This document shows, one piece after another, positions 1 through 60,626 of a DNA stretch of 64,000 nt (positions within the stretch are counted from its first letter, which is position 1; each line of letters opens with the position of its first letter). The position numbers were made by a program, and so were the translations under genes. The notes under the pieces are model-generated. The model made no database searches and was not told where the DNA came from. It was given only the letters and a program-made list of their open reading frames with translations. The stretch comes from Aquabacterium sp. A3 (lineage in GTDB: Bacteria > Pseudomonadota > Gammaproteobacteria > Burkholderiales > Burkholderiaceae_C): contig NZ_JBBPEV010000004.1 in the NCBI RefSeq assembly GCF_038069945.1, positions 1 through 64,000 on the forward strand, given 5' to 3'.

Positions 1-63
1 TCAGTCGGCAAGTTAAGGCAATCCAGGTTGCCGTATGCTCCACGCCCTCTCCTCCGCGCCCCA
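1..63 (+). other. 3' tail of an upstream integron cassette (partial)
   Basis: These bases precede the first complete attC. The last ~45 bases match the sequence just before attC5 at 3177 and resemble that before attC4, so they are the end of a cassette whose gene lies outside the window. No coding region can be supported in this fragment. Confidence 0.55.
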
Positions 64-181
64 GCCTAACTGTCAGGTCAACGCGGACGCAACCAAGGGC
101 CATGCCTTCGGCATTCTCATGACCCTTGCTTGTGCCCTCCGCCCTGGCGGGCTCCGGCGCCGGTTACCTTGGTAGTTAGGC
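64..181 (+). repeat. attC site 1 (118 bp)
   Basis: The site is bounded by GCCTAAC (64-70, fits the RYYYAAC inverse core) and GTTAGGC (175-181, fits the GTTRRRY core). The inner arms GGTCAAC and GGTTACC form an imperfect dyad, as in integron attC sites, which recombine as folded single strands. The sequence is almost identical to the sites at 1223, 2367 and 3177, the hallmark of a resident chromosomal array. Its orientation puts + strand genes after each core site, so an integrase would be expected to the left. Confidence 0.9.
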
Positions 182-186
182 CTCTT

Positions 187-408
187 ATGAACAAAACTGA
201 CGCAGCTGCTATTGCAACTCATCTGGAAAACGCAATCTCGCAGCTCTCGCTTGCGTTGCGAGAAGCACAGGAACGCCTTGATCCCGCCGCACATGAAAAT
301 TTCAAACGCTTGATCGGCTCTCAAATCGGCAAGCTTTCGTTTGAAGGCCTAGAGCCAATCTATGCAGAACATCCAGACCTTGCACCGCCAGGAGTTTTAG
401 AAGAATGA
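187..408 (+). CDS. small cassette protein of unknown function (73 aa)
   Basis: I do not recognise this protein. The frame stays open back into attC1, but the first ATG after the recombination core is at 187, six bases beyond the site, as is usual for cassette genes that start right behind attI/attC. The product is soluble, without a signal peptide or membrane segment. An N-terminal helix rich in Ala, Glu and Leu (about residues 5-38) suggests a short coiled coil; the C-terminal third is Pro-rich. It lies alone in its cassette, and attC2 follows 42 bp after the stop. No clear ribosome binding site is visible, so expression probably depends on read-through from upstream or on an uncharacterised cassette promoter. 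Confidence 0.6.
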   Translation: MNKTDAAAIATHLENAISQLSLALREAQERLDPAAHENFKRLIGSQIGKLSFEGLEPIYAEHPDLAPPGVLEE

Positions 409-450
409 GCGCCTCAACTCGTCGGCCACAGAGCGTGCCTTCGCTCAGTG

Positions 451-538
451 GCCTAACTGTTTGGTCAAGCCGACGCCAACAGCTATGCTGTTGGTGCCCT
501 ACGCTTCGCTCCAGCGAGGCTTACTGCGGGCGTTAGGC
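451..538 (+). repeat. attC site 2 (88 bp, different family)
   Basis: It carries the same GCCTAAC (451-457) and GTTAGGC (532-538) outer boxes as its neighbours, but the interior is unrelated and 30 bp shorter, with a palindromic centre around CCAACAGCTATGCTGTTGG. This marks cassette 1 as acquired from a different attC lineage than the others in the array. Confidence 0.85.
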
Positions 539-559
539 CGCAAAAATGGTCATCAGCGC

Positions 560-976
560 ATGAAAGCACTTGGCCCCTCGCTCATCAAGTTGGCCGCTTA
601 CATCGTCGTAACTTTGGCTGCGGCTTTCTTCTTCTTCATAGCACTGCAAGGCTTGAGCGGGGATGGCCTATCAATCCAAGCACGTCGAAGTGTAGTTTTT
701 TATCCTGCGCTACCTGGTGCCGTTCTAGCGCTCGGCTTTCTTTGCTTATCAGCTGCCTGCGCTCTCCCAATCGTCTTTCTTTTGCTTAAGAAGCCACTCG
801 TTGAGGCAACTGGAATTTCAATTGGGCTGCTCATAGCCTTCGCCGGATTGATAGTAACGGCCGTTTTGTTCTTAGTTTTAGGGATCGGCGTCCCAAACGA
901 TAAACCACTAACCTTGACGAGGGTTTTCGGAGCAATCGGAATCGTTCTATATCTTATTTACAAGATTCGGCAGTGA
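560..976 (+). CDS. cassette-encoded integral membrane protein (138 aa), unknown function
   Basis: No family is recognised. The open frame reaches back into attC2; ATG 560 lies 22 bases after the core and gives a natural N-terminus with a positively charged residue followed by a hydrophobic segment. Four membrane-spanning stretches are visible (about residues 11-30, 48-74, 84-107 and 118-136), with short polar loops and a basic C-terminal end (YKIRQ). The base composition is AT-richer than the chromosomal genes to the right, consistent with foreign origin. Small multi-spanning proteins of unknown role are common in cassette arrays. Transport, immunity or phage defence are possible roles, but nothing in the sequence chooses between them. 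Confidence 0.6.
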   Translation: MKALGPSLIKLAAYIVVTLAAAFFFFIALQGLSGDGLSIQARRSVVFYPALPGAVLALGFLCLSAACALPIVFLLLKKPLVEATGISIGLLIAFAGLIVTAVLFLVLGIGVPNDKPLTLTRVFGAIGIVLYLIYKIRQ

Positions 977-1000
977 ACAAAATTTGTGCGCCTGATTACC

Positions 1001-1147
1001 GTGTGCAATCAAAGCCAACCACCACTGAACCAGCATCTGGAAAAATCTCTGGCACTCAAAGCAATTGAGTGTGGCTATGCATATGTGAAACATCAATATC
1101 CATCGGCAATTCGGCGTTTTCTCATGCGTCTTGTAATCTATCGCTAG
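1001..1147 (+). CDS. possible small cassette ORF (48 aa, GTG start)
   Basis: The 246-bp stretch between the membrane-protein stop and attC3 has one protein-like + strand frame, from GTG 1001 to TAG 1147 (upstream GTG at 986 also possible). The product would be basic, with a C-terminal segment rich in Arg, Leu and Ile. There is no convincing ribosome binding site and no ATG near the start. It could be a real minigene, the tail of a degraded gene, or chance. No other structure is seen in 977-1222. Confidence 0.25.
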   Translation: MCNQSQPPLNQHLEKSLALKAIECGYAYVKHQYPSAIRRFLMRLVIYR

Positions 1148-1222
1148 TAAAAATTGGCACATGAATTGCAACACCCAAAATGCAGGCAACCGCACCAGCA
1201 AAACCTTCCACTCCGCGCCGCA

Positions 1223-1340
1223 GCCTAACTGTCAGGTCAACGCGGACGCAACCAAGGGCCATGCCTTCGGCATTCTCATGGCCCTTGGTTGTACTCTCCG
1301 CCCTCACGGGCTCCGGCGCCGGTTACCTTGGTAGTTAGGC
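1223..1340 (+). repeat. attC site 3 (118 bp)
   Basis: GCCTAAC (1223-1229) and GTTAGGC (1334-1340) bound a sequence differing from attC1 at only a few positions, for example CTCACGG where attC1 has CTGGCGG. Spacing and inner arms are intact, so the site should still be recombinogenic. Confidence 0.9.
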
Positions 1341-1417
1341 AGATTGAGCCAGGCATTTTGGGGGTGTACATTACATCCATCAACGGATACATTTGATCAA
1401 TCTTATTTATTATCAAC

Positions 1418-2083
1418 ATGAAAATCAGTTATCATAAAAAAATCGTTAGCGCCTCACTGCTAACTGCGTTGGCTGTGGGCGCGAGCGCGTCTCACGCCCA
1501 AGTAGCTCACTTGGATCTGACAATTGGCTCTCGCTACAGCCCCGACCAGCATTACGACGTAACGTATACCCCTGAAAATTCTGATTTTTTCGACGCTTGG
1601 GTGTGGGGCAGGACCCCCTCAGGGGAAGCAACTTACCTCCACTTCAGTCTCGGAACTTCAGGCCTCTCATCAGATCGGCCATGGCTGAGTCTTAATTTCA
1701 GCACCGCCAACCTAAACCAACCAATAGCTGTTGGCACCTAAACCAACACGGAGCGGGCCCCGTTCGAGTCCGCTGGACATGCCGGCTTTAGTATTGGCTT
1801 CGGTCCTTATGGCAACAATGCGGTGTGGGGGAGTTTTACAGTTGAAAAAGCGACTTTCTCAATTGACGGGAAAATTCAAGAGTTTTCAAGCTCCTTTGAG
1901 GCATTCGGCTCTTGCTGCTATGGCGGCGACTACGTAGACAAGTACACTGGCACATTTACATTTAGTGCAGTTCCCGAACCAGACAGTCAAATATTGCTAG
2001 CGTTAGGAATAGCTGGGTTGCTTGCATCAAGGACGCTACGTGTAAAATTAGCTGCACCAACCTCAGCACACAGCCAAAGCTAA
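1418..2083 (+). pseudogene. PEP-CTERM protein gene in an integron cassette, interrupted by one TAA
   Basis: The frame starting at ATG 1418 encodes a signal peptide (KK followed by a hydrophobic core and ASASHA cleavage region) and an exported domain, then meets TAA at 1739-1741. The same frame continues without shift to 2083 and ends in a textbook sorting tail: VPEPDSQ, a hydrophobic stretch, then an Arg-containing end. Without the stop it would be a 221-residue PEP-CTERM protein, to be anchored and processed by exosortase. A single nonsense mutation is the simplest reading; a sequencing error or independent use of the 107-aa N-terminal part are alternatives. The cassette begins after attC3 and ends at attC4. 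No family beyond the PEP-CTERM tail is recognised. Confidence 0.75.
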
Positions 2084-2193
2084 TATGAAGGGACATCGAG
2101 GCCTTTGCGGAAGCAGGCTGTGTTGCATCGCTAGATGGTTGAAATGCTAGGTGCATAGCTGTCCTTCGGCAGTCAGCTCAACATCCAGGGGCG

Positions 2194-2366
2194 CAAAGTG
2201 CCATTCGCCATCAGCCTTTTGGCTCAACAGCATCGGCGTTCTTCCACCAGGCCGAGGCGTCTGGCACACTGATCGCAAACATCAAATGGAGCGTCTGTGC
2301 AGCATTACTGTTCATCGAACCATGGCCAGTTTGCCGTGTGCTCCACGCCCTCTACTTCGCGCCACA
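2194..2366 (+). repeat. conserved cassette tail, copy A (173 bp before attC4)
   Basis: This stretch is about 85% identical, by eye, to 3004-3176, although the genes in front of the two copies are unrelated. The last ~45 bp also recur before attC1. Substitutions are not concentrated in third codon positions in any frame I tested, so it does not look like a conserved coding region. Together with 2084-2193, where nothing is seen, it fills the gap between the PEP-CTERM frame and attC4. Confidence 0.7.
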
Positions 2367-2484
2367 GCCTAACTGTCAGGTCAACGCGGACGCAACCAAG
2401 GGCCATACCTTCGGCATTCTCATGGCCCTTGCTTGTACCCTCCGCCCTAGCGGGCTCCGGCGCCGGTTACCTTGGTAGTTAGGC
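2367..2484 (+). repeat. attC site 4 (118 bp)
   Basis: GCCTAAC (2367-2373) and GTTAGGC (2478-2484) with intact inner arms. Nearly identical to attC1, 3 and 5. Confidence 0.9.
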
Positions 2485-2489
2485 TACTC

Positions 2490-2957
2490 ATGAGAAAAAG
2501 TTCAGCATGCTACCTAAAAGCGCTATCCGCAGTGATTGCCAGCATATTACTTACATTCGTTGTGGGCTCATTAATAGGAACTCCGATTAATCCCACTATG
2601 TCTCGGCACGTTCAAGCCAAAGCAGATACTGCTGTTGTAACAGGCATGGTCTTCCGAGAAGGTGAGGCAGAGGCATACTTTGCCGTACCAAGCACGCCAA
2701 ATCCGCCATTTTGGGTTGCCGTTCTGGACTGGCACGCGTGGTTGCTGGCACCTTTGCTCATAATAGCGCTCATGGCACTTCGGCCTGCAGCAATACCTTC
2801 ACTTATTGTGTATTGCGCTGCTGCCATCTCCTTGTACTATTTAGTAGCACCAACAACCGCTCTCGTACTTATCGTTTCGGGAACCTTAGGGACACTTGGC
2901 ATCTACGGACAGGGAAAGCTCAAAGACTTCCATCAGCGGAAGAAAAATCTCCATTAA
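2490..2957 (+). CDS. cassette-encoded membrane protein (155 aa), unknown function
   Basis: The first ATG behind attC4 is at 2490, five bases after the core. The protein starts MRKSS and has a hydrophobic N-terminal segment (about residues 9-31), a ~45-residue polar region probably outside the membrane, then three close hydrophobic segments (about 72-90, 95-112 and 116-134) and a basic Lys-rich tail (QRKKNLH) likely in the cytoplasm. The layout resembles a sensor-like membrane protein with one periplasmic loop, but no family is recognised. The conserved tail copy B and attC5 follow. Base composition is AT-rich compared with the chromosome. Confidence 0.6.
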   Translation: MRKSSACYLKALSAVIASILLTFVVGSLIGTPINPTMSRHVQAKADTAVVTGMVFREGEAEAYFAVPSTPNPPFWVAVLDWHAWLLAPLLIIALMALRPAAIPSLIVYCAAAISLYYLVAPTTALVLIVSGTLGTLGIYGQGKLKDFHQRKKNLH

Positions 2958-3003
2958 TTGAAGAATGTCGTAGCCCTGGCAACCGTGCCATGAAAACGAG
3001 TAC

Positions 3004-3176
3004 CAAATTGCCACTCGCCATCGGCCTTTTTCTCAAACAAGCTCAGTGGTCTTCCACCAGACCGAGGCGTCTGGCACACTGCTCTCAAACATCAAGGGTA
3101 GCGTCTGTGCAGCATCACTGTTCATCGAACCACGGCCAGTTTGCCGTGTGCTCCACGCCCTCTCCTCCGCGCCCCA
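3004..3176 (+). repeat. conserved cassette tail, copy B (173 bp before attC5)
   Basis: Homologous over its full length to 2194-2366 with no gaps that I can see, and placed at exactly the same distance from the attC. It fills the gap between the membrane-protein stop and attC5. No gene is supported inside it. Confidence 0.7.
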
Positions 3177-3294
3177 GCCTAACTGTCAGGTCAACGCGGA
3201 CGCAACCAAGGGCCATGCCTTCGGCATTCTCATGACCCTTGCTTGTGCCCTCCGCCCTGGCGGGCTCCGGCGCCAGTTACCTTGGTAGTTAGGC
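3177..3294 (+). repeat. attC site 5 (118 bp)
   Basis: GCCTAAC (3177-3183) and GTTAGGC (3288-3294). One visible change in the inner arm (CGCCAGTTACC instead of CGCCGGTTACC); otherwise as attC1. Confidence 0.9.
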
Positions 3295-3332
3295 TTTCTT
3301 TGGCTGGCCATCAGCACTCGGGAGGATTTACT

Positions 3333-3848
3333 ATGGGAATCACAATTCATTTCGAAGGTCGCCTGAAAGGCGATTCTGCTTACGAAGCCCTCATCCATGC
3401 TGCAGAACAATTTGCTTTGGCAAGAGGTTGGCAAGCCAAAGGCTTCCTAGTTGCGAGAACCACTTTATCCCGAGTTCGGAATGGAGAAGACTGGAACTAT
3501 GAAGGCCCAACCAAAGGAATTGAGTTGCAGCCCCATCCAAGCTCCGAGCCGATTCGCCTGGAGTTCGACGAAAACCTATTCATTCAGGAATACACAAAAA
3601 CGCAGTTTGCGCCCCCGGAAACGCATAAAGAGCTAGTTCTTCTTCTGGATCAGCTCATACCGCTCTTCGAGTCTCTTGAGGTCATCGATGAGGGGCAGTA
3701 TTTTGAAACACGCGATGAAGAACTATTGCTCAACCTGAGAGATCAATGCTTTGAGATGCTCGATGAGCATCTAGCAAATGATCTGACACTACGAGGGCCA
3801 GTACGGCTTCCAAGCGGGCGAATAGCAGACCTTGTAAGCGATACTTAA
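3333..3848 (+). CDS. cassette-encoded soluble protein (171 aa), unknown function
   Basis: ATG 3333 is preceded by GGAGGA at 3321-3326, the clearest ribosome binding site in the array, which fixes the start although the frame is open back into attC5. The product is acidic and lacks signal or membrane segments. The N-terminal 60 residues look like an alpha/beta domain (MGITIHFEGRL, then an Ala-rich helix). Residues ~95-140 are rich in Glu, Leu and Asp and look helical. I cannot name a family. A truncated attC (3885) follows 36 bp after the stop. Confidence 0.7.
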   Translation: MGITIHFEGRLKGDSAYEALIHAAEQFALARGWQAKGFLVARTTLSRVRNGEDWNYEGPTKGIELQPHPSSEPIRLEFDENLFIQEYTKTQFAPPETHKELVLLLDQLIPLFESLEVIDEGQYFETRDEELLLNLRDQCFEMLDEHLANDLTLRGPVRLPSGRIADLVSDT

Positions 3849-3884
3849 CCTCATCCGAGTGCAGCACCGCGCCTACGCGCCCCA

Positions 3885-3894
3885 GCCTAACTGG
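3885..3894 (+). repeat. attC site 6, left fragment
   Basis: CGCCCCAGCCTAACTG (3879-3894) matches the left end of the other attC sites up to the bases just after GCCTAAC, then the match stops abruptly at IS-like sequence. The right half lies about 530 bp downstream (4421-4523). Confidence 0.7.
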
Positions 3895-4420
3895 GTATAT
3901 GGACTCCCCCGCAAACGCAAGAGACTGATCGATTGAATGGCCGTGATGGGTGCGCCTGCAGTCGTATATCCGGCATCTGTGGTGGGCCCGTGTGAGCTGG
4001 CCCGTGCCGACATGGAATCTGCGTCACAGCGGAGCCAATCGGTGCAAGCGGCAGGCAAGCTGCCACGACAGTTACCGGCTTCATGCTGTGTGGGTGTGAC
4101 CCGGGGTGCCATGATGGGATATCAATCTCGTCGCAACGCTGGGAGGGGAACGTGGTTTTCTTCCTTCAAGACGGGGTTCGGGGTGCTGCCATCACGCCAT
4201 CTTGGCCTGGTAAGGCACCTTGTCTCTCAGGCACGCATAGCAAATGCGCGCCAGCTTGTTGGCCAAGGCACAGGCGCCCTTGTTGTGGCACGTCCTGGCT
4301 TGCAATTGCAGCGCCCAGCGCTTGAGCGCGCCAGGGGCTTGCCCTGTGCCTGCGCTGCCGCCACCGTCCTCAGCACGCTTCTGGCGCCGTGCACCAGCAG
4401 CATGCGCAGGTACGGGTCTA
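3895..4420 (-). mobile_element. decayed IS110/IS1111-type insertion sequence inside attC6
   Basis: The sequence between the two attC6 fragments encodes, on the minus strand, remnants of the C-terminal part of an IS110-superfamily transposase (see 4192-4421), followed by a ~300-bp non-coding end reaching TGGACTCCCCC near 3899-3910, which resembles an IS terminus. The 5' part of the transposase and the other IS end are missing, so this is a one-ended remnant. A subgroup of IS1111 elements is known to insert specifically into attC sites, which fits the position. It cannot transpose by itself. Confidence 0.65.
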
Positions 4421-4421
4421 T
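4192..4421 (-). pseudogene. IS110/IS1111-family transposase, C-terminal remnant with frameshift
   Basis: Reading the minus strand from 4421, the first frame gives DPYLRMLLVHGARSVLR, the conserved block of the transposase C-terminal (Transposase_20) domain. After about residue 35 the match moves to another frame, giving LKRWALQLQARTCHNKGACA and ANKLARICYACL, again typical of the family end, and stops at 4192-4194. The frameshift and missing N-terminal DEDD domain make it inactive. Confidence 0.65.
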
Positions 4422-4523
4422 CAAGCGGACGCCAACACTGGCGATGGCTTCGCCATTCTCATGGCCCGTGCTTGTACCCTCCGCCCTCACGGGCTCCGGC
4501 GCCGGTCACCGTGGTAGCCAGGC
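4421..4523 (+). repeat. attC site 6, right fragment with mutated core
   Basis: From TCAAGCGGACGCC onward the sequence matches the interior and right arm of the 118-bp attC family, but the terminal core reads GTAGCCAGGC instead of GTAGTTAGGC. The GTT recombination triplet is lost, so the site should not recombine even if the IS remnant were removed. Confidence 0.75.
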
Positions 4524-4598
4524 CTCTTGCAAGAAGAACTGTATATGCATACAGTTCACGGGTGCCATCCTGCACCGCCCAACAACTTCGGTATCCCC

Positions 4599-5012
4599 AT
4601 GCTTGACCACATGACATTCCGCGTATCCGACATCGCTCAGGCAAAAGCGTTTTACAGCGCAACCTTGGCCCCGCTGGGCTACAGCGTTTGTTTTGAAGGC
4701 AACTACGGCTCAAACATCCTTGGCCTTGCCTACCCTGATGCGTCCGAGCCAGACGGGAAAAAGGCTGACGTGTGGTTCATTGATGGCCCATCTCCATATG
4801 GCGGCCCAGCCGCAACATCTGGCTGTCACCTCGCATGGCGAGCAAAAAATCGTGCGCAAGTTGATGCCTTCTACAAGGCCGCTATCGCCGCGGGCGGAAA
4901 GGACAATGGCGCGCCTGGCCTGCGGCCGGATTACCACGCCAACTACTACGGGGCGTTCGTCATTGACCCTGAAGGCAACAACATTGAAGCCGTGTGCCAT
5001 CTGCCTGAATGA
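4599..5012 (+). CDS. VOC-family protein (glyoxalase/bleomycin-resistance fold)
   Basis: The 137-residue protein starts MLDHMTFRVSDIAQAKAFY, the typical first beta strand and helix of a vicinal-oxygen-chelate module, and ends with YGAFVIDPEGNNIEAVCH, the typical last strand with its metal-side Glu. His near residue 4 and Glu near residue 130 are candidate metal ligands. Proteins of this size are usually dimers acting on small molecules (glyoxalase, dioxygenase or drug-binding relatives); the substrate cannot be told. ATG 4599 is chosen because homologous proteins begin at this strand; an upstream ATG (4527) would add 24 unrelated residues. It is the last cassette of the array; no attC is seen behind it. 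Confidence 0.85.
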   Translation: MLDHMTFRVSDIAQAKAFYSATLAPLGYSVCFEGNYGSNILGLAYPDASEPDGKKADVWFIDGPSPYGGPAATSGCHLAWRAKNRAQVDAFYKAAIAAGGKDNGAPGLRPDYHANYYGAFVIDPEGNNIEAVCHLPE

Positions 5013-5061
5013 ATAGGGTTAACGTGCCCGCAACGTCTTCCACTCCGCACCACATCCCACC

Positions 5062-6607: not shown

Positions 6608-7333
6608 ATGAAACGTGCACTCACCTCCGCCTTGATCGCCCTTGTGCTGCCCGGCATGGGTGGTTTGCTCTTGCCTGACGCACAAGCCCGTGATCTGCGG
6701 GCGGACGAACCTGACCGGCTCGCGCTGGTGTCGTGGGTTAGAACGCAAAACGCCTTGGGCGACTTGAATGATCAAACTGGCCAGGGCTGGTCGATCAGAC
6801 GGGTATGGTCAGACCATGATCAGGCCACCGTGTGCGCCGTGGCGGTGGACCGCCGAGGCGTCCCACAGTTGCGACAGGGGCGGATGTTGCTGAGCCGGGT
6901 TCACATGAGCCGCACCGACGCCGGCTGGCGTGTCCAGGACCAGGAACAATTGTGGATGCCCACCAGCACCGCCATGCGCACCCAGTGTCAACCCAAGGCC
7001 TCGGCAGCCTTCATGTTGGCCGCGCTCGATGAACTGGAGCGAACACCCCCAACCGCTGGCCCCACCGCCGGTGCCCCCCAGGGATGGGCGCCCGCAACGC
7101 CAGAACGCACGGGGCGCATCACCGCTCGGGGCCGCACCCTGCTGCATGCGCTGCCCGACCTGAGCAGCCGCCTGGGCAAGCACCTGGTGCAAGGCGATCG
7201 CGTGATGATCGAAGAGCAGCGGCCCGGATGGACCCAGGTGCGCTACACCCATCCCATCACCAAGGTGGTCACCGTCGGCTGGGTGCGCAGCCCACGCGTG
7301 GCTCAGACGTCCACGTCCACCTCGTTGCCATAA
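6608..7333 (+). CDS. exported SH3-domain protein
   Basis: 241 residues. A signal peptide (MKRALTSALIALVLPG, ending near AQA at about residue 25) is followed by a polar region with DQATVCAVAVDRRGVPQLRQ, a Pro/Ala/Gly linker (about 140-165) and a C-terminal bacterial SH3-type segment (RGRTLLHALPDLSSRLG, then LVQGDRVMIEEQRPGWTQVR). Such domains bind peptides or peptidoglycan in the envelope; the exact role is unknown. ATG 6608 is preferred over the upstream in-frame ATG 6575 because it gives a standard signal peptide. The last 31 bp overlap the end of convergent parE. Confidence 0.7.
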   Translation: MKRALTSALIALVLPGMGGLLLPDAQARDLRADEPDRLALVSWVRTQNALGDLNDQTGQGWSIRRVWSDHDQATVCAVAVDRRGVPQLRQGRMLLSRVHMSRTDAGWRVQDQEQLWMPTSTAMRTQCQPKASAAFMLAALDELERTPPTAGPTAGAPQGWAPATPERTGRITARGRTLLHALPDLSSRLGKHLVQGDRVMIEEQRPGWTQVRYTHPITKVVTVGWVRSPRVAQTSTSTSLP

Positions 7334-9318
7334 ACCTCCATCAGCTCACGACGTGAGGCGGCTTCGCCCTTGCCCATGAGCTTGTTGAAGGACGTGACCG
7401 TGGCATCAAACCCAGGCTCGCCATAGGCCACCGGCAGCAGTCGGCGGGTTTCGGGGTTGAGGGTGGTTTCCCACAACTGTTCGGCACTCATCTCGCCCAG
7501 GCCCTTGAACCGGCTGATCGTCCAGGCGTTTTCTCGGCAGCCCTCTTTGCGCAGCTTGTCGAGGATGGCGGTGAGCTCGCCCTCGTCCAGCGCATACATC
7601 TTGGCCGCTGGCTTCTTGCCGCGCGCCGGCGCATCCACCCGGTACAGCGGCGGGCGGGCAATGTACACGTGCCCCGCCTCCACCAGCTTGGGGAAGTGGC
7701 GGAAGAACAGCGTCAACAGCAGCACCTGGATGTGCGAACCATCCACGTCCGCATCTGACAGGATGCAGACCTTGCCGTAGCGCAGGCCGCTCAGGTCGGG
7801 CGTGTCGGTGGGGCCGTGCGGGTCCACGCCGATGGCCACCGAGATGTCGTGGATCTCGTTGTTCTTGAACAGCAGATCGCGCTCCACCTCCCAGGCGTTC
7901 AGCACCTTGCCGCGCAGGGGCAGGATGGCCTGGGTCTCTTTGTTGCGGCCCATCTTGGCAGAGCCACCGGCCGAGTCGCCCTCGACCAGAAACACCTCGT
8001 TGAACGCCAGGTCGCGGCTTTCGCAATCGGTGAGCTTGCCAGGCAGCACGGCCACGCCCGAGCTCTTTTTCTTCTCGATCTTCTGGCCGGCGCGCTGGCG
8101 GGCCTGCGCCTGTTTGATGACCAGCTCGGCCAGCCGTTTGCCGTGCTCCACGTGCTGGTTGAGCCACAGCTCCATGGCCGGCTTGACGAAGGTGCTGACC
8201 AGGCGCAGCGCATCGCGGCTGTTCAAACGCTCTTTGGTCTGGCCTTGAAATTGAGGGTCCAGCACCTTGGCGCTGAGCACAAAACTGGCCCGCCCGAACA
8301 CGTCATCGGGCATGAGCTTGACGCCCTTGGGCAGCAGCGCATGCATGTCGATGAAGCCCTTGACGGCGTTGAACAGCCCGTCTTTCAGGCCGGACTCGTG
8401 CGTGCCCCCGGCCACCGTGGGAATGAGGTTGACGTAGCTCTCGCGCACCGGGGCCAGGTCTTCAGTGAAGGCCACACACCAGGCCGCACCCTCGCCTTCG
8501 GCGAAGTTCTCGGTTTCGCCCTCGGTGGCGTACATCTCGCCTTCAAACAACGGAATGATGGGGTCAACCGGCAGCGTCTGGCTCAGGTAATCGCGCAGGC
8601 CGCCCTGGTACAGCCAGGTTTGCACCTCGGGCTCTTTGCCCGACTTCTCGATGGTCAGGGTGATGGTCACGCCGGGCATCAGCACGGCCTTGCTGCGCAG
8701 CATGTGCACCAACTCGCCCCGGGGCAGCTCGGCGCTTTCAAAGTACTTGGCATCAGGCCACACGCGCACGCTGGTGCCTTGCTTGCGATCGCCGCTGACC
8801 GCTGGGCGCACGGCCACGGGCTCCAGCACCTCGCCACCATGGCCAAACACCAGGGTGGCCACCTGCTTGTCGCGGCACACCGTGACCTGAAGGCGCGTGG
8901 ACAAGGCGTTGGTGACGCTCACGCCCACCCCATGCAAGCCACCCGAGAAGCTGTAAGCCCCTCCCGAGCCCTTGTCGAACTTGCCGCCCGCATGCAGCCG
9001 CGTGAACACGATTTCCACCACCGGCACGCCCTCTTCGGGGTGGATGCCAAAGGGAATGCCGCGCCCGTCGTCGTCCACACTGATGGAGCCATCGGTGTGC
9101 AAGGTCACGGCAATGCGTTTGCCATGACCCGCCAGCGCCTCGTCGGCCGCGTTGTCGATCACCTCCTGGATGATGTGCAGGGGGTTGTCGGTGCGGGTGT
9201 ACATGCCCGGGCGCTGCTTGACGGGCTCCAGGCCCTTGAGCACACGGATGGACGCCTCGCCATAGGCAGCGGGCTGGTTGGCGGACGGGTGGGGTTTGGT
9301 CGAAGGCTTCGAAGACAT
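7303..9318 (-). CDS. parE: DNA topoisomerase IV subunit B
   Basis: 671 residues, normal for ParE. The GHKL ATPase domain shows KQRPGMYT, QEVIDNAADEALAGHG (Asn/Glu of the ATP site) and GGLHGVGVSV. The TOPRIM domain shows LVEGDSAGGSA and LSDADVDGSHI, with the catalytic Glu and the DxD metal site. The IEKKKSSG segment and FKGLGEMSAEQLWETT near the end are typical of ParE rather than GyrB. With ParA/ParC (parC is not in the window) it decatenates daughter chromosomes. ATG 9318 is chosen; the frame extends 30 codons further upstream without a conserved sequence. Convergent with the SH3 protein, overlapping it by 31 bp. Confidence 0.96.
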   Translation of the reverse strand: MSSKPSTKPHPSANQPAAYGEASIRVLKGLEPVKQRPGMYTRTDNPLHIIQEVIDNAADEALAGHGKRIAVTLHTDGSISVDDDGRGIPFGIHPEEGVPVVEIVFTRLHAGGKFDKGSGGAYSFSGGLHGVGVSVTNALSTRLQVTVCRDKQVATLVFGHGGEVLEPVAVRPAVSGDRKQGTSVRVWPDAKYFESAELPRGELVHMLRSKAVLMPGVTITLTIEKSGKEPEVQTWLYQGGLRDYLSQTLPVDPIIPLFEGEMYATEGETENFAEGEGAAWCVAFTEDLAPVRESYVNLIPTVAGGTHESGLKDGLFNAVKGFIDMHALLPKGVKLMPDDVFGRASFVLSAKVLDPQFQGQTKERLNSRDALRLVSTFVKPAMELWLNQHVEHGKRLAELVIKQAQARQRAGQKIEKKKSSGVAVLPGKLTDCESRDLAFNEVFLVEGDSAGGSAKMGRNKETQAILPLRGKVLNAWEVERDLLFKNNEIHDISVAIGVDPHGPTDTPDLSGLRYGKVCILSDADVDGSHIQVLLLTLFFRHFPKLVEAGHVYIARPPLYRVDAPARGKKPAAKMYALDEGELTAILDKLRKEGCRENAWTISRFKGLGEMSAEQLWETTLNPETRRLLPVAYGEPGFDATVTSFNKLMGKGEAASRRELMEVYGNEVDVDV

Positions 9319-9438
9319 GGGCGGGATTCTAGAGAGTTCCAAAGTGATGGATTGCGGGTATTTCCTCACGGTATTTCTGCCCACAGCCACGCCGGTCTGA
9401 CATAACATCTGGGAAATTTTTCACGACAAGGTCAGATC

Positions 9439-59699: not shown

Positions 59700-60626
59700 T
59701 CACCCCCGCGGATGGTGTCGCTCGTGCAACTGCCGCAAGCGCTCTCGCGCTACGTGGGTGTAGACCTGGGTGGTTGAAATGTCGGCGTGCCCCAGCAGCA
59801 ACTGCACCACACGCAAGTCGGCTCCGTGGTTGAGCAAGTGCGTGGCAAAGGCGTGGCGCAGCGTGTGGGGAGACAGGGCTTGCCGGATGCCTGCCTGAAC
59901 GGCCAGTTGCTTGATGCGTTTCCAGAACATCTGGCGTGTCATGGCCGCGCCGCGCACCGTCACGAACAGATCATCCGACTGCCGGCCCGCCAGTATCTCT
60001 GGCCGTGCCGACGCCAGGTAACGAGTCAGGCACAAGCCGGCCTCTTCACCGAAGGGCACCAGTCGCTCCTTGCTGCCCTTGCCAGTCACACGCACCACCC
60101 CTTCGGGCAGCATCACCTGCCAGTGCTGCAAGGTCACGAGTTCGCTCACGCGCAGTCCGCTGGCATACAGCAGCTCCAGCATGGCGCGGTCGCGCAGGCC
60201 CAGCGCCTGCTGTGTGTCCGGGGCCGCCAGCAAGGCCTCCACCTGGGCCTCGGTCAAGGTGCCCGGCAGGCGAGAAGGCAGGCGTGGCGCCGCCAGGCGC
60301 AAGGTCGGGTCTTCGGTGATCAGGTGCTCGCGCACCGCCCACTTGAAGAACCGGCGGAAGGTGCTCAAACGCCGCCCCGCCGAGCTGGGTCGGGTGTCGG
60401 CATGGCGGGCGACGCTGTACGCGTGAAGGTCCGGTTCGCGAACCTCACACAAGAGCCGGGCGCCACCATCCTGGCTCGCCAACCATGTCAGCAGGCCCGT
60501 CAAATCCCTGCGGTAGGCGGCCAGGGTGTTGTCGCTGAGCCCAGCTTCCAGCCACAAGGCTTGCAGAAAGCGGTCCAGCACCGGGTCGTCACCCGACCCC
60601 AGCCCCGGCCCCCTGGCGCGGATCAT
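59700..60626 (-). CDS. xerD: site-specific tyrosine recombinase XerD
   Basis: 308 residues. The catalytic set is complete: Arg in YASGLRVSELVTLQ, Lys in TGKGSKERLVP, His-Arg in LSPHTLRHAFATHLL, His in LLGHADISTTQVYTHV and the nucleophilic Tyr there. NTLAAYRRDL opens the core-binding domain. With XerC it resolves chromosome dimers at dif. It lacks the extra IntI patch, so it is not the integrase of the cassette array. ATG 60626 overlapped by the next gene's end. Confidence 0.93.
   Translation of the reverse strand: MIRARGPGLGSGDDPVLDRFLQALWLEAGLSDNTLAAYRRDLTGLLTWLASQDGGARLLCEVREPDLHAYSVARHADTRPSSAGRRLSTFRRFFKWAVREHLITEDPTLRLAAPRLPSRLPGTLTEAQVEALLAAPDTQQALGLRDRAMLELLYASGLRVSELVTLQHWQVMLPEGVVRVTGKGSKERLVPFGEEAGLCLTRYLASARPEILAGRQSDDLFVTVRGAAMTRQMFWKRIKQLAVQAGIRQALSPHTLRHAFATHLLNHGADLRVVQLLLGHADISTTQVYTHVARERLRQLHERHHPRG

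Follow-up and report, generated by a model that had tools for sequence, protein, structure and literature searches.

The window studied here is a stretch of 64,000 nt, bases 1-64000 of contig C4 in the draft assembly of Aquabacterium sp. A3 (28 contigs, 3.83 Mb), and its left end carries an integron cassette array, in which short genes are separated by attC recombination sites. Window positions 1-4523 belong to a cassette array with attC that match those of six more contigs, including one that encodes an intact integron integrase (IntI). A family of cassettes without a gene of their own, and some cassettes that share its 3' end, carry a conserved module made of a GGCANAAT-like box, a Shine-Dalgarno (SD) sequence and an ATG or GTG start, from which a reading frame runs in phase with a stop codon in the R' core of the attC. 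We infer from these sequence features that the module would serve as a cassette-borne ribosome-loading leader, similar to the ORF-11 of class 1 integrons.

A sequence-only reading of the window had proposed six attC sites, four of them near-identical copies of 118 bp, between genes on the + strand. The covariance model R1 and the folds confirm that the sites are real; the six are on the + strand and span 64-4523. Measured against the copy at 64, the 118-bp copies have 95-100% identity, and the cassette genes listed for the window all lie on the + strand. R1 was built from 14 attC copies of the source genome and gives the five sites that the reading had named for checking 60.4-143.9 bits, scores which are circular because all five are among the 14 model-building sequences. 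The sixth attC, which lies outside the training set, scores 76.3 bits at 4400-4523. A 27-base attC pattern has 54 matches in the genome versus 0 for the same pattern read backwards. The bottom strands of the five named sites fold with R'' and R' paired (shuffle z of -2.8 to -5.9), bearing out the expected attC-like stem, and the RNA folds of four attC are strong, at -52 to -68 kcal/mol. The attC and leader features, the latter scored with R2, a sequence model of the leader tail from 25 tails of four genomes, are the following (ORF, open reading frame).

64..181, + strand: attC 1, 118 bp (R1 143.9 bits, training set; fold z -4.2)
451..538, + strand: attC 2, short divergent type, 88 bp (R1 60.4 bits, training set; fold z -2.8)
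1223..1340, + strand: attC 3, 118 bp (R1 143.5 bits, training set; fold z -5.9)
2251..2373, + strand: leader module 1, with the GGCACACT box at 2263-2270, SD sequence AAATGGAG at 2284-2291 and GTG start at 2297 (R2 87.0 bits)
2297..2482, + strand: leader ORF 1, 61 aa, crossing attC 4 to a TAG stop in its R' core at 2480-2482 (sequence)
2367..2484, + strand: attC 4, 118 bp (R1 140.8 bits, training set; fold z -3.9)
3062..3183, + strand: leader module 2, damaged, with the GGCACACT box at 3073-3080, SD sequence AAGGGTAG at 3094-3101 and GTG at 3107 (R2 86.8 bits, a training copy)
3107..3235, + strand: leader ORF 2, with a TGA stop inside attC 5 (ORF list, sequence)
3177..3294, + strand: attC 5, 118 bp (R1 139.0 bits, training set; fold z -4.5)
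3885..3893, + strand: attC 6, left part, R'' core (sequence)
3894..4420, strand not assigned: insertion splitting attC 6, about 530 bp, borders approximate (weak resemblance to an IS110-family transposase remnant)
about 4421..4523, + strand: attC 6, right part, the last attC of the array, R' degenerate (R1 76.3 bits at 4400-4523)

The SD sequence of leader module 1, AAATGGAG, is one base off the family sequence AAAGGGAG, and leader ORF 1 ends 7 nt before the ATG of the next gene (2490). Similar modules recur in other genomes of the genus. A scan for an SD-like hexamer (6/6) with a spaced start, over the final 130 nt of each of 157 cassettes, gave 54 matches; 43 of these enter the attC in the frame xGC-CTA-ACT, and 40 of the 43 read to the attC end. 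Within the genus, 27 of 42 genomes gave an R2 match (E<=0.01), many over the last 45 nt only, with 14 full-length by our own count. For genomes outside the genus, a search of 150 family-wide genomes under stricter filters returned two, namely the source genome and a partial match in the same genus. Ten genomes not used for R2 hold 38 full-length matches, of which 37 were read (G020:C217 was left out); all 37 have an SD of at least 5/6 with a start, and 34 start at 1 mod 3 before R''.

The main count covers 258 attC with a recognisable R' core in 14 genomes, comprising 77 with leaders (11 genomes) and 181 others. The source genome gives 60 of its 64 attC; contig ends truncate two of the four left out, and the others are the split attC and the one on C5. 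Of 83 leader matches entered, 6 are not tied to such an attC, and three more held-out matches without a called attC were not entered. An SD of at least 5/6 with a start is found at 76 of the 77 leader attC, start and core stop share a phase in 74, and a stop between start and R'' occurs in none (0/77). In 62 the frame runs uninterrupted to the core stop, which stands at positions 3-5 of GTTRRRY; two leaders have no stop in the stretch read. Among the 181 other attC, the range scanned contains no start in 36, and the remaining 145 show no preference of phase (49/55/41); 27 have an SD of at least 5, 68 a tail stop, and in 21 the frame reaches the core stop. When leader tails were shuffled, a 6/6 SD came up in 13 of 3850 trials.

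The spacing of start and attC appears to be held in phase. Distances from start to R'' are 70 (59 leaders), 73 (7), 67 (6), 71 (3) and 68 (2), and the three starts at 71 keep phase because their attC lengths are 0 mod 3; two of these three read to the core stop. An attC length of 1 mod 3 is seen in 72/77 leaders versus 131/181 others (p=1e-4), and permuting attC length among leaders within genomes leaves a mean of 68.6 in phase versus the 74 observed (p=0.00045). When 49 non-redundant leaders from 11 genomes are aligned, conservation peaks at GGCANAAT, at AAGGGAG and at the start codon, and the flanks diverge. Of the 75 distinct leader tails, 62 have the box, written as GGCANA[AC]T (reverse strand, 10; shuffles, 3.0), as do 4 of 178 other tails. 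Speculatively, its sequence would suit a -10 element, which would make the cassette a source of promoters as well.

The gene-less cassettes, obtained by cutting the array into cassettes, are 489-565 bp long, and 12 aligned copies are about 82-94% alike over the aligned parts; one further copy is identical to another. Incidental open frames reach about 175 aa, and the family counts as having no gene of its own. A protein-coding gene over the whole family was considered and rejected, as codon periodicity over the 12 copies is not clear, and so was a conserved RNA structure, since RNAalifold gives no covariation support (term +0.97; 4/133 pairs changed on both sides). With the body of the cassette as query, 11 of 41 genomes gave matches, the source genome included, all of them in the genus.

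At least six cassettes with different 5' parts have only the last 77-201 bp of the gene-less family (C4_03, C4_04, C8_04, C9_09, C9_11 and C13_01), and two of them lie in the window. Among 1540 cassette pairs of the source genome, 329 share 3' ends only, 80 share both ends and 0 share 5' ends only, and in Aquabacterium fontiphilum there are 27 3'-only pairs versus 0 5'-only. Sharing of 3' ends is not a general pattern, because three other array sets are mixed (35 vs 16, 2 vs 5 and 8 vs 6, 3'-only vs 5'-only). Many 3'-only pairs of the source genome have a second, shorter tail in common. This is a GGATTGACACGTGAAGTGCAACAC-CAAAAT-like sequence in the last 60-75 nt of cassettes (L036, L037, L040, L205, L206), present in the source genome and in A. 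fontiphilum and resembling a -35/-10 promoter; the strict pattern occurs in 6 of 178 non-leader tails, in 0 on the reverse strand, with 0.4 expected from shuffles. A second small cassette family has an SD and a start about 107-109 nt before the attC (L212 at 1419, 2840, 4614 and 6277; L038 at 3163, oriented), and its attC is read through by one of the four in L212 and by the one in L038.

From these features the following sequence of events can be proposed. Ribosomes would load at the SD and start of the leader module at the 3' end of a cassette, translation would continue through the attC and melt its mRNA hairpin, it would end at the stop codon of the R' core, and the ribosomes might then re-initiate on the start of the next cassette, which usually has no SD sequence of its own. 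An SD match is absent at the first start of 104/125 coding cassettes, and of 71/80 of those that start within 30 nt of the core.

Several observations weigh against this proposal. R2 rewards similarity in SD and start, and the count was repeated for that reason on a selection by upstream sequence only, which took 69 of 253 sites and agrees with the main count; 64 of the 69 have an SD of at least 5, 62 are in phase and 50 read to the core, with 3 lacking a start and 1 stopping in the tail. No leader-tail match was found in 15 of the 42 genomes of the genus, 13 of 77 leader frames end inside the attC, window leader 2 among them, and 3 of 77 are out of phase and uncompensated, all in G016 (two starts at 68 and one at 70, with an 86-bp attC). 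If in-frame starts anywhere within a gene's first third are counted, 39 of 125 coding cassettes have an SD match (86 do not). The idea that leader attC are specially kept open is unsupported, as the core-stop frame is open in 63/77 leader attC vs 136/181 others (p=0.26), and so is the idea that leaders preferentially precede genes without an SD (25/31 directly 3' of leaders vs 79/94, p=0.78). Leader copies are also related by descent, so the sites are not independent.

Much of this would suit a different explanation, in which the gene-less family is merely a selfish or promoter repeat and the SD, start and phase were inherited from one ancestor without a translational role. The common ancestry of the copies, the open core frame of most non-leader attC and the lack of missing-SD enrichment 3' of leaders are all as it would have them, and so is the box, conserved far above its frequency in shuffles. 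Gene-less cassettes with promoter activity are, moreover, described in Vibrio and Treponema (PMC11014356, PMC6557892, in excerpt). Simple descent accounts less well for an SD and start that persist while their flanks diverge, for distances that are mostly 1 mod 3 (67, 70, 73), for three starts at 71 matched by attC length, as two at 68 are not, and for in-phase leaders in excess of the permutation expectation. We regard this explanation as possible yet doubtful.

That the family is instead a short protein-coding gene, with its C-terminal part encoded by the attC, is very improbable. It would account for frames that stay open over some 40-62 codons behind an SD and a start, and for a leader-frame stop in 0/44 tails vs 2/44 and 10/44 in the other two frames. 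The ratio of nonsynonymous to synonymous polymorphism (pN/pS) in the leader frame is however near 1 (0.84, 1.21 and 1.04, not clearly below other frames), and thus the leader peptide is under no visible selection, a point that also counts against the leader proposal. The attC-encoded parts vary in length and sequence between species, and the family is without clear codon periodicity.

A ribosome-loading leader has a known precedent. ORF-11 of attI1 in class 1 integrons has an SD sequence and crosses the recombination point, and ribosomes re-initiate from it on the first cassette; its stop, usually TAG, stands at positions 3-5 of the GTTRRRY core (PMC8876359, in excerpt). The Aquabacterium leader has the same combination of SD and start, crossed recombination site, core stop and a peptide whose sequence is of little importance, the last as described for ORF-11 in the same excerpt. 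It differs in sitting at the 3' end of a mobile cassette, in crossing a whole attC rather than attI, and in its many copies per array; its starts lie 67-73 nt before the attC R'', inside cassettes, and not at an attI. By analogy, it would be a mobile, cassette-borne counterpart of the role of ORF-11 in attI1. The hindrance of ribosomes by attC hairpins is reviewed in PMC8876359, which in the excerpt used also relates that short ORFs in attC can relieve the barrier (Jacquier 2009), with passage of ribosomes through attC mRNA favouring the next cassette, as would be the case here. Unlike those short ORFs, the leader has its start further upstream, within a conserved module that brings an SD of its own, and it belongs to a repeated cassette family that several species of a single genus share.

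In Vibrio superintegrons, gene-less promoter cassettes likewise act on the expression of the downstream cassette (PMC11014356, in excerpt), an effect which in Aquabacterium is a prediction. The Vibrio work tests transcription, and the terms 'small ORF' and 'through the attC' do not occur in its main text as excerpted (PMC11014356), whereas promoter activity of the Aquabacterium gene-less cassettes is only suggested, by the conserved box. In excerpts of the open-licence literature on Aquabacterium integrons and on attC leaders or read-through, no cassette-borne leader was found among the matches listed. The leader cassette is new as a variant of gene-less regulatory cassettes and of ORF-11-type leaders, while the integron itself is ordinary. 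It has in common with Vibrio-type sedentary integrons an intact IntI, tens of near-identical attC, short genes mostly on one strand and repeated gene-less cassettes, the latter known in Vibrio (Boucher 2006, PMC1382264, in excerpt). The Aquabacterium array differs in its place between parC-like and parE-like genes, and in that other cassettes share the 3' tails of the gene-less ones, whereas the non-coding cassettes of Vibrio match their homologues over their whole length in the part of Boucher 2006 used (PMC1382264).

The extent of the array becomes apparent from the whole genome. An R1 search that scored 150 of 3251 candidates found 65 attC at E<=0.001; C4, C5, C8, C9, C11, C13 and C24 account for 64, the remaining one is on C2, and C8, C9, C11, C13 and C24 are filled with near-identical attC. 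The sequence-only reading had seen no integrase in the window and had predicted intI to the left of base 1. The first holds, as the tyrosine-recombinase matches at 59745-60431 score 83 and 34 bits against a TIGR02249 cut-off of 265. The second agrees with an IntI on C5 in the expected orientation, of 349 aa without stops and with 464.9 bits for TIGR02249; its gene lies about 2.5 kb from the C5 end, and its orientation fits an array running off that end. The best PDB match of this IntI is 2a3v (IntI4 of Vibrio cholerae; 284.6 bits, aligned over 20-331), and the position of the integron-specific patch falls within the aligned part. Compared with the IntI of the 80 named loci kept, it is nearest to the A. 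fontiphilum protein (74%).

A parC-like gene adjoins intI on C5, and A. fontiphilum has the same pair (on one contig, listed as both L092 and L206); of the 106 loci that gave any match, only these two had parC beside intI, most flanks being short or unrelated. The flanks of intI and of the array appear to be parC and parE, not gyrA and gyrB. In all likelihood the window array forms the distal end of a sedentary chromosomal integron of an Aquabacterium-like species, split over contigs by the assembly because the repeats of the array break it. Weighing against this, the linkage of C5 to C4 is putative, as the order of the contigs is not physically closed: a comparison of the ends of the array contigs gave no exact overlap of 11-200 nt.

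The sequence-only reading had offered, in case intI was missing, a cluster of attC sites lacking an integrase (CALIN). A true CALIN, that is an attC cluster having lost its integrase, can be dismissed as scarcely credible, for C4 indeed has no intI above the family cut-off, but base 1 of the window is the end of contig C4, C5 of the same genome has an intact IntI with a fitting array orientation, and five further contigs carry near-identical attC. The CALIN label is most likely an artefact of contig breaks, and software given nothing but contig C4 would probably report it all the same. The distal end of a sedentary integron together with a read-through leader module is, we think, quite probably the best joint explanation of the window.

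The remaining features of the window are the cassette genes and the right flank of the array.

187..408, + strand: cassette gene, 73 aa, no Pfam match, no SD match at its start (ORF list, Pfam)
560..976, + strand: cassette gene, 138 aa, no Pfam match (ORF list, Pfam)
1418..2083, + strand: PEP-CTERM-like cassette gene, frame broken by an in-frame stop at 1739-1741 (ORFs 1418-1741 and 1823-2083 in a common frame)
2490..2957, + strand: cassette gene, 155 aa, weak DUF6518 match below cut-off, no SD match (ORF list, Pfam)
3333..3848, + strand: cassette gene, 171 aa, no Pfam match, own SD GGGAGGA (sequence, Pfam)
4599..5012, + strand: glyoxalase-family gene (PF00903) beyond the last attC, start picked by eye in the ORF 4527-5012 (Pfam)
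7303..9408, - strand: parE-like topoisomerase subunit B gene with gyrB-type domains, array flank, probably parE rather than gyrB (Pfam)

The gene at 1418..2083 is presumably PEP-CTERM-like, judging by a motif in its product, and its in-frame stop means that this cassette near the array end may be decaying. The insert in attC 6 is single-copy in the source genome; 97 nt of it (17% of the query) are 74.5% identical to the transposase region of ISPa25 (IS110-like) in 1 of 72,556 plasmid records, and its 87-aa ORF has no Pfam match. The IS1111/IS110 families include insertion sequences with attC as their target (IS1111-attC).

Elsewhere in the genome, attC-like sites adjoining intI (L035:17660-19000) are decayed, which is unusual because new cassettes should enter there; the cassettes at that place look like toxin-antitoxin genes. 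Both ends of C24 (L040; opposite orientations) and one end of C10 (L041 start) have a terminal sequence in common, as if an insertion sequence broke the array there. Cassettes C13_03-04 (L039) and C24_03-04 (L040) match in length, C13_03 and C24_03 being identical over 434 nt, which may be either a recent segmental duplication or an assembly artefact. The lone attC-like site on C2 (G000 C2:354674-354789; L091:2175-2290; 61 bits) lies directly 3' of a 353-aa ORF, and C2 has no IntI match above the cut-off; we take the ORF to be ParA-type ATPase-like and the upstream sequence to be like the end of glmS. At L035:8094-8392 there is an Rfam 5_ureB_sRNA match of 109.8 bits in this betaproteobacterial genome, a family described from Helicobacter. 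Stretch L211 of G013 has no attC match, and the G013 genome has no leader-tail match. On 37 of the 80 loci, R1 gave 13 attC matches, too few for a test of leaders in other genera.

We lean somewhat towards a wider reading, in which Aquabacterium integrons contain many mobile ribosome-loading cassettes, each passing its ribosomes to any cassette that the integrase inserts behind it, their attC are translated and held in frame by length, and the 3' parts of cassettes are exchangeable. The origin of new cassettes is an open question, and cassettes with only a 3' module in common bear on it; fusions of the 3' module to genes at different breakpoints would, if true, mean that exchangeable 3' parts go into the making of cassettes. 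In large integrons the majority of cassettes are far from the main promoter, and many here have no ribosome site. If the leader acts as proposed, a ribosome-loading cassette would explain how distant cassettes are translated, and a reading-frame constraint would be added to the evolution of attC.

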